A stretch of DNA of 64,000 bases, taken from NCBI RefSeq assembly GCF_014201735.1, contig NZ_JACHFE010000002.1, positions 186,001 to 250,000 of the forward strand, given 5' to 3'. The translations under genes were made by a program, and so were the position numbers. The DNA is from Marinobacter oulmenensis. Its GTDB lineage: Bacteria > Pseudomonadota > Gammaproteobacteria > Pseudomonadales > Oleiphilaceae. A model generated the notes under the pieces. That model ran no database searches. It worked only from the letters and a program-made list of their open reading frames with translations, and was not told the origin of the DNA. Positions 458-23,378 of this stretch are shown here, in pieces; the first letter of the stretch is position 1; every line of letters starts with the position of its first letter.

Positions 458-2332
458 ATGCTGAACAAGTATCCTCTCTGGAAAAACCTGATCATCGTGT
501 GCGCACTGGTCATCGGGTTTATCTATGCCTTACCGAATTTTTTCCCGGACGATTACGCCATTCAGATTACCGGTGCCCGCGGCGGCACAGAAGTGGACCA
601 GCGGGTGCTGGATCGGGCCCTTGGCAAGCTGGATGAGCTCAATATTGAAGTGAAATCGAGCGAAGTCGAGCAGCGGGATGCGCTGATTCGTCTGACCAGT
701 TCCGAAGACCAGTTGCGTGCCCGTCCTGCGGTACAGGACGCGCTCGGAGATCGCTATCTGGTGGCGCTCAACATGGCACCGTCGACCCCGGACTGGCTTC
801 AGAGCCTGGGCGCCGGGCCCATGAAGCTGGGCCTTGACCTGCGCGGCGGCGTTCACTTTCTGCTGGAAGTGGATATGGAAACGGCTCTGAACCAGCGCCT
901 TGAGGCCCTTTCGGGCCAGATCAAGCGGGATCTGCGGGAAGAGAGGGTGCGCTATCGCGGTGGTGATATTGAGGACGGTCGCAACATCGTGCTCAGTTTC
1001 CGCGACGAGGAAGCGCGGGCTGAGGCTTTCAGCCTGATTCGTGACCAGTACAACCAGTTCCTGCTGGACGAGACCAGCGAAGAAGGACAGTTTTTCCTGA
1101 CCCTGTCGCTGTCCGAGGCGGAGGTCAAGAGTATTCAGGAATATGCCCTTGAGCAGAACCTGACCACCATCCGTAACCGGGTGAATGAGCTGGGCGTCGC
1201 CGAACCGCTGGTACAGCGCCAGGGCACTGATCGCATCATTGTCGAATTGCCGGGCGTGCAGGACACCGCACAGGCCAAGCGGGTTCTGGGTTCTACCGCC
1301 AATCTGGAGTTCCGGATGGAGGCCCGCCAGGATGCGTCATCCTCGGAAACCGAGGAATATCAGTTCCGGGATAATCCCCAGCGCAGCGCGCGGCTGGAGC
1401 GGGACGTGATTGCCACGGGGAATAACGTGGCCAATGCCCAGCAGGCCTTTGACGAAGCCGGTCAGCCGCAGGTGAATATCACCATGGACTCGGTCGGTGG
1501 TGATCTGATGAACCGGGCCACCCGCAACAGCATCGGCCGGCGCATGGCGGTTCTGTTCATCGAATACGGCACGGAAACCGAGACCCGTGAAGTGGACGGG
1601 CAGATGCAGGAAGTTGAACGCCGTACAGTGGATAAAGGCATTATCAGCCTGGCAACCGTGCAGTCCGCTCTGGGAAGCAGCTTCCGGATCACCGGTCTGG
1701 ATTCCATTCCCGAAGCGTCCGAGCTGGCCCTGCTGCTGCGTGCCGGTGCCCTGGCCGCTCCCATGTACTTTGTGCAGGAGCGCACCATCGGGCCCAGCCT
1801 GGGTCAGAAAAACATCGACGCCGGTCTGATGTCCGTGATCTTCGGTTTTGCGCTGGTGCTGTTGTATATGCTGGTGTTCTACCGTGGCTTTGGTCTTATC
1901 GCCAATGTCGGCCTTGTGCTGAACCTGATGCTGCTGATTGCCTGTATGTCGATCCTGTCGGCAACCCTGACGCTACCAGGTATTGCGGGTATTGTGCTGA
2001 CCGTCGGTATGGCCGTGGATGCGAACGTCCTGATATTTGAGCGGATAAAAGAGGAGCTGCGCGCCGGCGTGCCGCCGCAACTGGCCATCAACTCGGGTTA
2101 CGGTCGGGCCTTTGTGTCCATTTTCGACGCCAACATTACCACCCTGCTGGTGGCCGTGATCCTGTTCGCCATGGGTAGCGGGCCAGTCAAGGGGTTCGCC
2201 GTCACTCTGTGTATCGGCATCCTGACCTCCATGTTCTCCGGCCTGATGGTCAGCCGTAGCATCGTGAACCTTGTTTACGGTGGTCGCCGGATCGAGAAAC
2301 TGTCAATCGGGGGGAAGCTGTCTAATGGCTGA
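458..2332 (+). CDS. secD: Protein translocase subunit SecD
   Basis: A 624-residue RND-like membrane protein that uses the proton motive force to finish preprotein translocation. There is an N-terminal membrane span (about residues 9-27), then a large periplasmic domain with the KLGLDLRGGVHFLLEVD motif, and five C-terminal membrane spans from about residue 450. The conserved GMAVDANVLIFERIKEEL segment in the C-terminal half carries the Asp-Asn pair typical of proton-coupled SecD. The length is normal for gammaproteobacteria. The start ATG follows an AAAGGAA ribosome binding site. The stop overlaps the secF start by 8 bases, indicating translational coupling. Confidence 0.97.
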   Translation: MLNKYPLWKNLIIVCALVIGFIYALPNFFPDDYAIQITGARGGTEVDQRVLDRALGKLDELNIEVKSSEVEQRDALIRLTSSEDQLRARPAVQDALGDRYLVALNMAPSTPDWLQSLGAGPMKLGLDLRGGVHFLLEVDMETALNQRLEALSGQIKRDLREERVRYRGGDIEDGRNIVLSFRDEEARAEAFSLIRDQYNQFLLDETSEEGQFFLTLSLSEAEVKSIQEYALEQNLTTIRNRVNELGVAEPLVQRQGTDRIIVELPGVQDTAQAKRVLGSTANLEFRMEARQDASSSETEEYQFRDNPQRSARLERDVIATGNNVANAQQAFDEAGQPQVNITMDSVGGDLMNRATRNSIGRRMAVLFIEYGTETETREVDGQMQEVERRTVDKGIISLATVQSALGSSFRITGLDSIPEASELALLLRAGALAAPMYFVQERTIGPSLGQKNIDAGLMSVIFGFALVLLYMLVFYRGFGLIANVGLVLNLMLLIACMSILSATLTLPGIAGIVLTVGMAVDANVLIFERIKEELRAGVPPQLAINSGYGRAFVSIFDANITTLLVAVILFAMGSGPVKGFAVTLCIGILTSMFSGLMVSRSIVNLVYGGRRIEKLSIGGKLSNG

Positions 2333-3281
2333 TATGGAAAAGAAACCGTTTGACTTCATGGGCCTGCGGAAAATCGCATCGGTCATTTCCATTGCCCTGG
2401 TGGTTGTCTCCATCGCGTTACTGGCCGTTCGGGGGCTCAACTTCGGTATGGATTTTACCGGGGGTACGTCGGTAGAGCTTGAGTATGTTCAGGCCCCGAA
2501 CCTGGATGAGATCCGCGGTAAGCTGGATGAGTCCGGGTATGAGAACTTCGCCGTTCAGAATTTCGGCTCAGACACTACGGTACTGATCCGTCTGGCCGAG
2601 GCCGACAATGACAAGCTGGCCCGGGAAGTGACGGCAGCGCTGTCGGAGTCGGGCCAGGAACTGGAACTGGTCAGTTCCGAATTCGTCGGTTCCCAGGTGG
2701 GTGAGCAACTGAAGGAGGACAGTGGTCTCGGGCTGCTGCTTGCGCTGGCTGTGGTGCTGATCTACGTTGGCATGCGCTTCCAGTTCAAGTTTGGTATTGC
2801 CTCGGTGGTGCCGCTGGCTCATGACGTCATCATTGTGCTCGGGGTGTTTGCCCTGTTCCAGTGGACCTTCGATCTGACCGTGTTGGCGGCTCTGCTCGCG
2901 GTGATCGGTTATTCCCTGAACGATACCATCGTGGTTGCCGACCGGATCCGGGAGAACTTCCGGAAAATCCGTGTGGGCGAGCCCTGGGATATCATCAATG
3001 AATCCATCCACGAGACGATCACCCGGACCATCAATACCTCCGGTACCACCCTGGTGGTGCTGATGGCGTTGTATCTGTTTGGTGGTGAAGCCATCAACAA
3101 CTTTGCCATTGCCCTGATCATTGGTGTGGTTGTGGGGACCTACTCATCCATCTATGTGGCCGCCAACATGTTGATGGCGCTCGGCGTCAGCCGTGAGGAC
3201 CTGATGGTGCCGGCGAAAGAGGGCGCCCAGGGTGAAGAGGGTGAGGAAGAGCAGCCACCCGAGTGGCTGAACCGGATGTAA
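2325..3281 (+). CDS. secF: Protein translocase subunit SecF
   Basis: A 318-residue partner of SecD. The first membrane span is at about residues 15-35, followed by the FGMDFTGGTSVELEY motif, a small periplasmic domain, and five C-terminal spans with the family motif SLNDTIVVADRIREN. I start it at the ATG inside the secD end (MADMEKKPFDF), which gives an 8-base overlap. An in-frame upstream start at 2271 would add 18 residues from within secD and is unlikely. The acidic C-terminus (GEEGEEEQPPEW) is cytosolic. The gene ends at a strong bidirectional terminator shared with the convergent suhB-like gene. Confidence 0.96.
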   Translation: MADMEKKPFDFMGLRKIASVISIALVVVSIALLAVRGLNFGMDFTGGTSVELEYVQAPNLDEIRGKLDESGYENFAVQNFGSDTTVLIRLAEADNDKLAREVTAALSESGQELELVSSEFVGSQVGEQLKEDSGLGLLLALAVVLIYVGMRFQFKFGIASVVPLAHDVIIVLGVFALFQWTFDLTVLAALLAVIGYSLNDTIVVADRIRENFRKIRVGEPWDIINESIHETITRTINTSGTTLVVLMALYLFGGEAINNFAIALIIGVVVGTYSSIYVAANMLMALGVSREDLMVPAKEGAQGEEGEEEQPPEWLNRM

Positions 3282-3359: not shown

Positions 3360-4172
3360 TCAGTGAGTCAGGCGGCCCCGGAAGGGGTGCAGTACCTTGA
3401 GCACTTCCCGGAACAGCTTCGGGTTGGCGACCACCAGTTGCTTCGCGTTGGCGGCGGATGGGTTGCCAACGATATCGCCGGTCAGGGCGCCGGATTCCAT
3501 GGCCAGGGTAGCGCCCAGGTCCAGGTCGACCGGTTCCGGGCGGAAGATCACCGCGGCGTCCAGCAGTCCGGAGGATGCCCGGGCGATATCCAGAACGGGG
3601 CAGCCAGAGCTGCGGAACATGGCCGTTTCGCTGGCCAGGGTGGCGGCCATTTCGCCCCAGAGCATGGGGTTGTCGCTGCCGCGTGCCTGATCAAGAATAT
3701 TGCTGGCGAGTGCCGACTTGCCGAGCAGTTTGACCTCGGAAACGCGCACCCGGCGGCTGTTCAGTGCCGCGCCGTGCCCCCGGCTGGCAGAGTATTCCTC
3801 GCCGGTCACCGGGTTGATGACCAGCAGGTTTTCTGCCCGGTTCTGTCGCTTTTGCATCAGTGCCAGGGCGAATTCCGGGATACCACGGACAAAGTTTTCG
3901 CGCCCCAGAACGGGAAAGATATGCCAGGTTTTCTCGATGCTGTCGGCATTCGCCTGGCCCATCGGCACGATGGTGTGGTCCTTGTAGGCCTTTTCAAGCT
4001 GCTCGGTGAAATTGTCGTAGATCGACTTTTCCACGCGCTCGAGTTGCTGGTGGCGCTCCGCGTCATCCCTGGTGTTGGCGTCCTGACGCTCAAAATGTGC
4101 CTTTAGGTAGTCTGCTCCCTGGCGGGCAACGCGCAGGGCCATCTTGATTGCTGGTTGCATCTGAGTGTTCAT
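3360..4172 (-). CDS. SuhB-like inositol monophosphatase family protein, catalytic motif lost
   Basis: A 270-residue member of the IMPase/SuhB family, in the place where suhB sits in Pseudomonas (divergent from trmJ-cysE-iscR). The fold-level features are recognisable: the YSASRGHGAALNSRRVRVSE stretch at about residues 127-146, the C-terminal GNPSAANAKQLVVANPKLF region and overall length. However, the family metal and active-site motif D-P-x-D-G-[ST] is replaced at residues 85-94 by I-F-P-V-L-G-R-E-N-F. The expected acidic GEE segment reads MGQANA (71-76). Only one Asp of the second motif (D216 in VDLDLG) remains. The frame is open throughout, so this is not a frameshift. Phosphatase activity is therefore unlikely. 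A non-enzymatic role like that of E. coli SuhB in rRNA antitermination is my inference. No good Shine-Dalgarno is visible before the start. Confidence 0.85.
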   Translation of the reverse strand: MNTQMQPAIKMALRVARQGADYLKAHFERQDANTRDDAERHQQLERVEKSIYDNFTEQLEKAYKDHTIVPMGQANADSIEKTWHIFPVLGRENFVRGIPEFALALMQKRQNRAENLLVINPVTGEEYSASRGHGAALNSRRVRVSEVKLLGKSALASNILDQARGSDNPMLWGEMAATLASETAMFRSSGCPVLDIARASSGLLDAAVIFRPEPVDLDLGATLAMESGALTGDIVGNPSAANAKQLVVANPKLFREVLKVLHPFRGRLTH

Positions 4173-4351
4173 TATCCGGGTGTGTTAAGGCCGGCCATCA
4201 TAACAAAAGATGATCGCCCTTGTACGTTTTTCGGCTCAGGAAAAGCACGGACAGGCCCGGTTTTAGGGGATTTCCGCAGAGCCCCGAAGCGGTTGTTTCT
4301 GCTATCATTGCGTCCTTATTCCCCAATCGTTGACCCACAGGCCCAATTGTC

Positions 4352-5224
4352 ATGCATAAGCCCGCTCTCCCGGTGGAGGAAACCGATACCTACCAGGACC
4401 AGATCCGTATTGTGCTGGTGGAGACTTCGCATTCCGGTAATATCGGCGCGGTTGCCCGGGCCATGAAGAACATGGGGCTGGGCAACCTGTGGCTGGTCAA
4501 TCCGGCCTCGTTTCCTGATGAGGCATCCTACGCCCGTTCAGCAGGGGCTTCCGATGTTCTGGATCGGGCACAGGTGGTGTCGTCACTGGACGAGGCCCTG
4601 GCGGATTGTGTGCTGGTTATGGGAACCAGCGCCCGTGGTCGAAAAGTCCCCTGGCCGGTCACCGCGCCACCGGAAGCGGCGGCCAGGGCGGCTCAGTATG
4701 CCCATCAGGGGCGGGTGGCCATGGTGTTCGGCCGGGAAAGCAACGGGCTGTCCAATGACGAACTGCAGCGTTGCCATTATCACATTCACGTGCCGTCGAA
4801 CCCGGAATACAGCTCCCTGAACCTGGCGATGGCGGTGCAGGTCATCTGTTATGAATTGCGGATGCATTACCTGCGCAGCCTTGAAGAAGGGGAGTCCCGT
4901 CCTCACCTTGGCTCCATGGTCAGACCCGGCGACCCGGGCTGGGATGTCCCTCCGGCGAGTGTGGGTGATGTGGAGGGCTTCTTCGGGCATCTGGAGTCAG
5001 TGCTCGAGGCGGTGGAGTTCCATCGGCGCAGTAACCCGCGACAGCTGATGCCCCGGTTGCGCCGCCTGTTTCAGCGTGCGCACATGGATCAGATGGAAAT
5101 CAATATCCTGCGCGGGGTTCTGACATCTGTAGAGAAAGCGGTCGAGGCCCGTGACGGGGTCGGGCCGGATAAAGCCACTGCGGCCGATGCCGCGGATGAG
5201 GGGCAGGACAAAGATCATGTTTGA
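4352..5224 (+). CDS. trmJ: tRNA (cytidine/uridine-2'-O-)-methyltransferase TrmJ
   Basis: A 290-residue SPOUT-class methyltransferase that 2'-O-methylates position 32 of tRNAs using S-adenosylmethionine. It has the N-terminal motif [20 protein letters not shown], the knot motif [14 protein letters not shown] and the SLNLAMAVQ segment that forms the cofactor pocket. The C-terminal extension (after about residue 165) is longer than in E. coli and ends in an acidic low-complexity tail. The first of two neighbouring starts is used; the protein begins [10 protein letters not shown]. The stop overlaps cysE by 8 bases, so the two are translationally coupled. Confidence 0.93.
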
Positions 5225-6605: not shown

Positions 6606-7757
6606 ATGATGAACAAGCCCGTATATCTGGATTATGCGGCCACCACGCCCGTGGACCCGGTTGTCGCTCAGGAAATGAGCCGATATCTGACCGGTGACGG
6701 GGTGTTTGGTAATCCCGCATCCCGCTCCCATGGTTTTGGCTGGCAGGCCGAAGCGGCTGTTGAAGGTGCCCGGCGGCAGGTCGCGGATCTTATTGGCGCT
6801 GACCCCAGGGAGATCGTCTGGACGTCAGGAGCCACGGAATCCGACAATCTGGCGATCAAGGGTGTGGCGGCCATGCACAGGCAGCCTCACATCATCACGT
6901 CGGAGGTCGAGCACAAGGCGGTGATCGACACCTGTGTCTGGCTTGAGCGCCAGGGCGTTGAGGTGACCTGGCTCAAGCCGGATGCCGAAGGCCGGGTCTC
7001 CCTGGTGTCGGTGGCGGATGCGCTGCGCGAAAACACCGTGCTGGTCAGCCTGATGCTGGTGAACAATGAACTGGGCTGTATCAACGATATTGCTGCCATC
7101 GGTGCCCTGTTGCGCGAGCGTGGGGTGTTGCTGCATGTGGATGCCGCCCAGGGGGCCGGTAAGCTGCCGATGGACGTTGCAGCCATGAACGTGGACCTGC
7201 TGTCGTTGTCGGGCCACAAGGTCTACGGTCCCAAGGGTGTCGGCGCGCTGTATGTTCGGCGGTCCCCGGAAGTGCGGCTCGAAGCCCAGATGCATGGCGG
7301 CGGGCATGAGCGAGGCATGCGCTCCGGTACCTTGCCGACGCACCAGATCGTCGGCATGGGCCAGGCGTTTGCCCTGGCCGGAGAACAGCTCGATGCCGAA
7401 GTCGAACGTCTCGAATCCCTTCGCAAGCGCTTTCTGGCAGGCCTGGATGCGTTATCCGGGGTCCATTTCAACGGGAGCCGGGATCAGCGGGTTCCGGGCA
7501 TTCTCAACCTCGCGTTTGAGGGTGTTGAGGCCGAGTCGTTGATGCTGGGGTTGCGCAATCTTGCCGTGTCGTCGGGGTCAGCCTGTGCCTCGGCAACCAT
7601 GGATCCGTCCTATGTGCTCAAGGGCATAGGCCTGGATGATGAGTTGGCTCATCGGTCCCTCCGGTTCTCGTTTGGCCGCTATACCACGGAAGAGGAAATC
7701 GATTTCGCCTGCCAGCAGATTAGCGAGGCCGTGACGCGACTTCGTGCCCTGCGGTAG
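6606..7757 (+). CDS. iscS: Cysteine desulfurase IscS, lacking the C-terminal IscU-docking tail
   Basis: A PLP enzyme that takes sulfur from cysteine for Fe-S clusters, tRNA thiolation and thiamine. Seen here: the N-terminal [11 protein letters not shown], the [13 protein letters not shown] and EHKAVIDTC motifs, the PLP lysine in SGHK (K205), and the active-site loop SSGSACAS with Cys327. It is 383 residues if started at 6606 (ATG ATG; 6609 is equally possible). E. coli IscS has 404, and the missing part is the C-terminal tail that contacts IscU; this protein stops right after RLRALR. The next gene is ndk rather than iscU. The likely retained roles are tRNA 2-thiolation and general sulfur supply. 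Confidence 0.93.
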
Positions 7758-7783
7758 GCAGTGATCGCCTGACTGCGTATAAT
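7755..7783 (+). promoter_or_regulatory. Sigma70 promoter for ndk
   Basis: TAGGCA (7755-7760), a 17-bp spacer and a perfect TATAAT (7778-7783), overlapping the end of iscS and 46 bases before ndk. Confidence 0.6.
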
Positions 7784-7828
7784 TGTCAGCCCTGAGTTTA
7801 CCAACACCAAACAATTGGAGAAAACAAC

Positions 7829-8257
7829 ATGGCAACTGAGCGCACGCTCTCCATTATCAAGCCCGACGCTGTGGCCAAGAATGTTATCGGCGAAATCTAC
7901 AGCCGCTTCGAAAAGGCCGACCTGAAAATCGTTGCCGCCAAGATGATGCATCTGACCCAGGAGCAGGCGGAAGGTTTCTATGCCGAGCACAAGGAACGTC
8001 CGTTCTTCAACGATCTGGTCGCCTTCATGACTTCCGGTCCGGTTGTCGTTCAGGTGCTCGAGGGCGAAGGCGCCATTGGCAAGAACCGTGACCTGATGGG
8101 TGCGACCAACCCGAAAGAGGCGGAAGCCGGCACCATCCGTGCAGACTTTGCTTCCACCATTGATGCCAACGCCGTTCACGGTTCCGATTCAGCGGCTTCC
8201 GCTGAGCGGGAAGTGGCCTACTTCTTTAATGACGACGAAATCTGCCCGCGCAACTGA
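7829..8257 (+). CDS. ndk: Nucleoside diphosphate kinase
   Basis: A 142-residue cytosolic kinase that balances NTP and dNTP pools by phosphotransfer from ATP. The family signatures are intact: N-terminal [12 protein letters not shown], and the active-site histidine in NAVHGSDS. The length is standard. A clear TTGGAGAA ribosome binding site precedes the ATG, and it has its own promoter. In many gammaproteobacteria ndk follows the isc cluster, which supports the view that iscU to iscX have been lost from between iscS and ndk. Confidence 0.97.
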
Positions 8258-23165: not shown

Positions 23166-23204
23166 GAGTTCAGTCAAATTTGATGAGAGACAGGAGAATA
23201 CGCC

Positions 23205-23354
23205 ATGTATATGGACGCGGTTGTGATAGCCGGGATTCTAACAGTGCTGCTGATGGTTGCTTTCTTTGTGGGCGTGGGCATCTTTGTGATGAAAGACCAG
23301 AAAACCCATGGTGGTAAAAACACCAAAAACAACCACGGAGGTAACGGCCACTAG
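23205..23354 (+). CDS. ccoM: CcoM-like small cbb3-oxidase-associated membrane peptide
   Basis: A 49-residue peptide: a short N-terminus (MYMDAVVIAG), one hydrophobic span at about residues 5-28 (ILTVLLMVAFFVGVGIFV), then MKDQK and a hydrophilic tail rich in Gly, Asn, His and Lys. The pattern VVIAG-x-LTV-x-LMVAFF-x-G-x-G-x-F followed by a Lys-Asp pair resembles Pseudomonas CcoM, the small stabilising subunit of cbb3 cytochrome oxidase; this is from memory, not a search. An AGGAG site lies 8 bases before the ATG. The perfect Anr box upstream fits low-oxygen expression. The His/Gly-rich tail looks longer than expected. The ccoNOP genes are not in this window. Confidence 0.75.
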   Translation: MYMDAVVIAGILTVLLMVAFFVGVGIFVMKDQKTHGGKNTKNNHGGNGH

Positions 23355-23378
23355 CGTGGTCGTTTCTCAAGGCAAAAA

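Follow-up and report, generated by a model that had tools for sequence, protein, structure and literature searches.

The closest described system is the SuhB protein of Escherichia coli (b2533), which is both a Nus factor and an inositol monophosphatase (IMPase). In the available part of Huang et al. 2019 (PMC6614801), this protein binds the AR2 domain of NusA, and the K251A/L254A substitutions weaken that binding from 94 nM to 141 uM. The available parts of that paper and of Singh et al. 2016 (PMC4807359) describe the IMPase activity as dispensable for the function of suhB in E. coli; according to the latter, the growth defect that follows suhB loss is not seen with IMPase-defective mutants, and E. 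coli shows no clear requirement for IMPase activity. This agrees with the activity-independent role of E. coli SuhB that had been invoked in an earlier note on the DNA studied here. The expression of suhB is also autoregulated through BoxA, whose consensus is given as GYTCTTTAANA in the accessible part of Baniulyte et al. 2017 (PMC5725501). A second relevant system is the SuhB of Pseudomonas aeruginosa (8WDQ, 8WIP), which was crystallised with inositol-1-phosphate and which keeps the DPLDGT motif. As for a naturally inactive SuhB, no report of one came up in searches of an open-access library (subscription papers being outside their scope), and the available parts of PMC4503921 and PMC5516325 are not about such a protein.

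We analysed a stretch of 64,000 nucleotides from Marinobacter oulmenensis, which we will call the window. The order of the genes at the locus of interest is yajC-secD-secF, then suhB on the (-) strand, then trmJ, cysE, iscR, iscS and ndk, where the names of suhB's neighbours are those that we presume from recognising the window sequences; TrmJ, CysE, IscR, SecF and SecD served as probes. The gene secF is the listed open reading frame at 2271..3281 (+), and trmJ, found by neighbour search and comparison with E. coli, lies at 4352..5224 (+), so that it is divergent from suhB. In E. coli (NC_000913), suhB also adjoins trmJ in divergent orientation. The position of suhB next to trmJ-cysE-iscR is indeed the one that the earlier note had reported. 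Further along (6606-7829), ndk comes directly after iscS, and the iscU-iscA-hscBA-fdx genes, which come after iscS in E. coli, are absent here; IscU (PF01592) gave no match in any of the 6 genomes of Marinobacter's family that were tested, and it is present in a genome of another family (G350). Elsewhere in the window, at 23169-23371, a PhrS small RNA (RF01673, 95.6 bits) adjoins a tRNA-Glu gene.

The gene at 3360..4172 (-) is open throughout its 270 codons. Its product scores 59.5 bits against PF00459 (cut-off 27), and it matches E. coli SuhB over its length (E about 3e-26). Among solved structures, its best sequence match is P. aeruginosa SuhB, which is aligned with residues 4-264 (E 2.2e-35); with the A1 profile, the same protein comes a close second (E 5.8e-44) to another P. 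aeruginosa SuhB chain. The NCBIfam model NF008027 (inositol-1-monophosphatase) is the top-scoring of the four NCBIfam models matched, with a score of 104.4 bits that is far below its curated cut-off of 332. A paralogue was considered and ruled out, since the gene has the suhB position and no family model fits it better than that of SuhB. Judged from sequence and position, the gene is the positional orthologue of suhB. The claim on the fold is based on the sequence since AlphaFold yielded a weak model (pLDDT 64.6, pTM 0.49), and Foldseek with this model ranked SuhB chains first with a TM of only about 0.4. ATG 4160 (MQPAI..., 266 aa) is a more likely translation start than ATG 4172, because the latter codon is not conserved (ATG in 54, ACG in 21 and TTG in 3 of 78 Marinobacter-clade leaders), because a TAG separates it from the next ATG in three loci (L173, L074 and L175), and because ATG 4160 is common to other genera as a start. 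Thus, of the gene limits first proposed, the open frame stands but the upstream start probably does not.

We take the metal ligands of E. coli SuhB to be E67, D84, D87 and D212. In the alignment of the window protein with E. coli SuhB, the first three are replaced (E67 by M, D84 by F and D87 by L), T89 is replaced by R, and D212 is kept. More precisely, MGQANA (residues 71-76, 3945..3962, (-)) replaces the acidic E67-E68 motif, FPVLGR (residues 86-91, 3900..3917, (-)) stands in place of the metal-binding DPLDGT of E. coli (D84-T89), and D216 (codon 3525..3527, (-)), which corresponds to D212, is the sole ligand left. The residues that the earlier note had read from the window alone were found to be correct. 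The SuhB of the window is probably unable to bind the catalytic Mg2+ ions and, as far as the alignment can tell, it would be devoid of phosphatase activity.

Our preferred explanation, to which we assign a probability of roughly 0.8, is that the SuhB orthologue has turned into a pseudophosphatase that persists as a Nus factor for rRNA antitermination. The protein keeps the IMPase sequence framework together with the NusA-AR2 contact residues, and, like its E. coli counterpart, it would bind the AR2 domain of NusA and the leader RNA that carries boxA. In doing so it would aid NusB and NusE in joining the RNA polymerase complex, counter Rho and support rRNA folding. Several elements of the host are consistent with this retained Nus function, which we infer. 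NusA in the Marinobacter genome (G000) aligns with residues 1-495 of E. coli NusA, AR2 (427-495) included. A consensus boxA, CGCTCTTTAACAAG, is found in the rRNA leader about 153 bases upstream of the 16S start motif. In SuhB itself, R255..L258 (3399..3410, (-)) corresponds to E. coli K251/L254, the NusA-AR2 contact described in the available part of PMC6614801, and the window protein has R and L there, K to R being conservative. A K or R occupies position 251 in all 97 genus sequences that have a letter at this site and in 71 of the 72 lost sequences from outside the genus; position 254 is L in all 97 genus sequences with a letter and in 35 of these 72 (V in 17, I in 8). This conservation evidence covers one contact pair, K251/L254. 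Weighing against the preferred explanation are this modest retention of L254 outside the genus, the chance-level BoxA of the Marinobacter suhB leader, the absence of R184, the comparatively high dN/dS of suhB, the weak structure model and the frameshifted copy of one genus genome. The earlier proposal was that selection keeps a Nus or scaffold role and has dropped the chemistry: the loss of the site and the constraint on the gene are borne out, and the Nus role is consistent with the AR2 domain, the boxA and K251. Marinobacter SuhB therefore resembles that of E. coli in its divergent position beside trmJ, its full-length alignment, its K251/L254-type contact, and the presence of an rrn boxA and of NusA-AR2 in its genome; it differs from it by the absence of the metal site and of a consensus BoxA in the suhB leader. 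As a side observation, in two genomes where the SuhB site is lost (L329 and L330, from G374 and G248), NusA is 51% and 41% identical to that of E. coli, the range in the other 26 genomes searched being 59-67%, and a co-divergence of NusA and SuhB is possible in these two.

The suhB leader itself (4174..4210, (-)) is strongly conserved in Marinobacter, and its alignment displays an extended -10-like element, TTTTGTTATGAT, and CCTTAACACACCCGGAT, which is not a consensus BoxA. The sequence CCTTcACACACCCGGATAA comes directly after the extended -10-like box, and a shorter conserved element, CCTTcACACA, is also found in this leader. BoxA-like sites in the suhB leader of Marinobacter were no more frequent than chance would give (they occur in 3 of the 98 sequences of the genus at p<=0.02, none of them strict), and the idea of using them as Marinobacter support for a Nus role was dropped on that ground. 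Outside the genus, such sites (p<=0.02, within 120 bases) were found upstream of 25 of the 72 lost genes (4 strict) and of 11 of the 45 intact ones (2 strict), and the strict BoxA upstream of lost suhB belong to four genomes of two families (f23 and f31). The BoxA regulatory link thus outlives the loss of the site in other lineages, which is not seen in Marinobacter.

In the genus search, SuhB was matched in 124 of 124 genomes and a full-length orthologue was found in 121. The three exceptions are a frameshifted copy (G001), a copy truncated where its contig stops (G063) and a genome, 82% complete, with a distant paralogue only (G076). The frameshifted suhB (L176), made of two overlapping pieces in different frames, is the sole broken copy of the genus search, and it may reflect either a sequencing error or a real loss. 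We read 98 distinct genus sequences (the window's included) rather than all 121, of which 96 are gap-free at the four ligand sites, and none of the 98 has an intact site. Among the 96, position 84 is always F, position 87 is L in 86, M in 8 and I in 2, and position 212 is D in 87 and E in 9. No acidic substitution restores the site at positions 67, 84 or 87 in the genus, which rules out that the ligands were swapped there for other acids. The site is also lost in all 38 distinct sequences of the family's 15 other genera, Tamilnaduibacter included; chance or the misalignment of a single sequence is ruled out, as the pattern holds genus- and family-wide. The lineage-wide pseudo-SuhB envisaged at the outset thus turned out to be wider than proposed, encompassing all 16 genera of the family as well as losses elsewhere.

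The uniformity of the genus pocket is what speaks for another reading, in which SuhB would be neofunctionalised, its pocket rebuilt for another ligand or partner, with a role other than, or beyond, rRNA antitermination. Besides the fixed F84, residues W79, H80, F82, P83 and G86 (266-aa numbering) are invariant in 31 aligned genus sequences, in contrast with the variable positions 34, 38, 67 and 68, and the chance-level BoxA of the Marinobacter leader goes in the same direction. However, the 72 lost sequences outside the genus display 49 different four-ligand combinations, a diversity that loss explains better than a single new site would, and the other conserved positions and NusA-AR2 are common to intact lineages. 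We consider neofunctionalisation unlikely.

The pseudophosphatase reading gains from the distribution of these losses. Among 215 distinct TrmJ-linked orthologues, the number of ligands kept is four in 45, three in no sequence, two in 11, one in 116 and zero in 43; two rows among the 170 lost ones (two ligands or fewer) are cut or broken. In the Pseudomonadales, a TrmJ-linked orthologue was read in 36 families, many of them represented by just one or two sequences, and the site is intact throughout in 27, lost throughout in 7 and in a mixed state in 2 (f34 and f39), so that losses occur in eight families besides Marinobacter's own. Since the sampling is uneven, with regions partly picked as divergent-looking, these proportions should not be taken as frequencies. 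We placed the states on a tree of concatenated TrmJ, IscR, CysE, SecF and SecD (87 rows, 30 of them with less than half of the columns, obtained by a quick method with no bootstrap). On this tree, the state of the site changes at least 10 times, and several losses look independent for this reason. In particular, the lost g82 is nested with good support in the otherwise intact f34, and the lost groups f1, f32, f31, f23 and f5/f6/f33 fall apart from one another, the placements of L127, L275 and L276 being doubtful. The replacements at the four sites also differ from one lost sequence to another. One ancestral loss with later regain at that locus seems less likely. Outside the order, 184 genomes were searched with E. 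coli SuhB, two of which gave no match; we looked only at the 12 whose matches were weakest, and 3 of the 12 (G398, G412 and G505) have a TrmJ- or SecF-linked SuhB without a complete site, with one (L370), two (L360) and three (L359) ligands missing, respectively; an intact paralogue in a genome could mask further losses. One of these three genomes is of 1.1 Mb.

What the lost proteins have kept is also informative. Fifty-five positions are invariant in intact orthologues, namely nine of the catalytic site and metal shell, a set that was chosen from family knowledge after viewing the conservation table, and 46 others. In the 72 gap-free lost sequences outside the genus, the median retention is 0.08 for the catalytic nine and 0.71 for the other 46. 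P3, W81, R139, R141, E222 and G224 are kept in all 72; R184 is not kept. Because nearly all lost sequences keep them, P3, W81, G130/G132, N136, R139, R141, E222, G224 and K/R251 may belong to the non-catalytic framework or to interfaces. A residual or altered phosphatase, using other residues or another metal arrangement, could be read from position 212, which is acidic in all 96 genus sequences and in 50 of the 72 other lost ones. Yet K34, D38, E67, E68, D84, D87 and T89 are each kept in only 3-25% of the lost sequences outside the genus, the genus has F at 84 and L, M or I at 87, and a lone acidic residue at 212 may be structural, all of which makes this possibility very unlikely.

The median pairwise dN/dS of suhB over 79 Marinobacter-clade loci is 0.10. 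Of the five neighbours compared with it, only SecF has a higher value (0.11), the others having 0.08 (SecD), 0.06 (IscR), 0.05 (TrmJ) and 0.03 (CysE); pairs were limited to dS 0.05-1.2 (88 to 817 pairs by gene) and neighbour frames were taken from stop to stop, so the values are rough. The gene is clearly constrained by purifying selection, though less tightly than most of these six. The lone frameshifted copy could suggest a decaying pseudogene heading for loss, but this is barely credible given the full-length matches in nearly all genus genomes, the low dN/dS, and the open frames and constraint across the whole family. A pseudoenzyme combines lost catalytic residues with purifying selection, and the SuhB of the window shows both; the intact frame that the earlier note had stressed is confirmed, with constraint upon it.

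One may wonder whether another enzyme stands in for the lost activity. The earlier note had suggested a search for a second, catalytically intact IMPase in the genome, and such a gene was found: two further PF00459 genes have complete motifs, L001 (WIVDPIDGT, WD) and L002 (CysQ by NCBIfam). Across the tree rows with a count (16 of the 87 had none and were dropped), the mean number of other PF00459 genes is 2.03 in 29 lost genomes vs 1.10 in 42 intact ones (p 1.6e-4, uncorrected for kinship). The well-supported independent lost/intact pairs number only 4, with a median p of 0.5 in the sign test. Moreover, genome G204 has a single PF00459 match, and this match is almost certainly the lost SuhB of that genome (L278), as another search likewise gives just one match there. 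Obligate compensation by an extra IMPase was rejected on these two grounds, and the loss of the SuhB site seems to come without the need for a spare IMPase.

What is new here is an apparently enzyme-dead form of a known Nus factor that is natural, found throughout a family, and recurrent. It is reminiscent of the laboratory-made IMPase-defective mutants of E. coli, in which, according to the available part of PMC4807359, activity is lost without the suhB growth defect, with the difference that the loss in Marinobacter is natural, family-wide and recurrent. The pocket of the Marinobacter family, with F84, L/M87, R89 and an almost fixed W-H-[IV]-F-P-x-[LMI]-G, leads us to a bolder and rather doubtful conjecture: the SuhB phosphatase would often be discarded in Gammaproteobacteria as its essential job is purely architectural, and in this family the emptied pocket would have been rebuilt as a new contact within the antitermination complex. 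In practical terms, genes of this kind are probably misannotated when they are labelled inositol-1-monophosphatase. The relevance of the phosphatase to the role of SuhB in ribosome synthesis has so far been judged, in the portions of the literature available, from E. coli mutants, and its family-wide and recurrent natural loss amounts to an evolutionary separation-of-function experiment.
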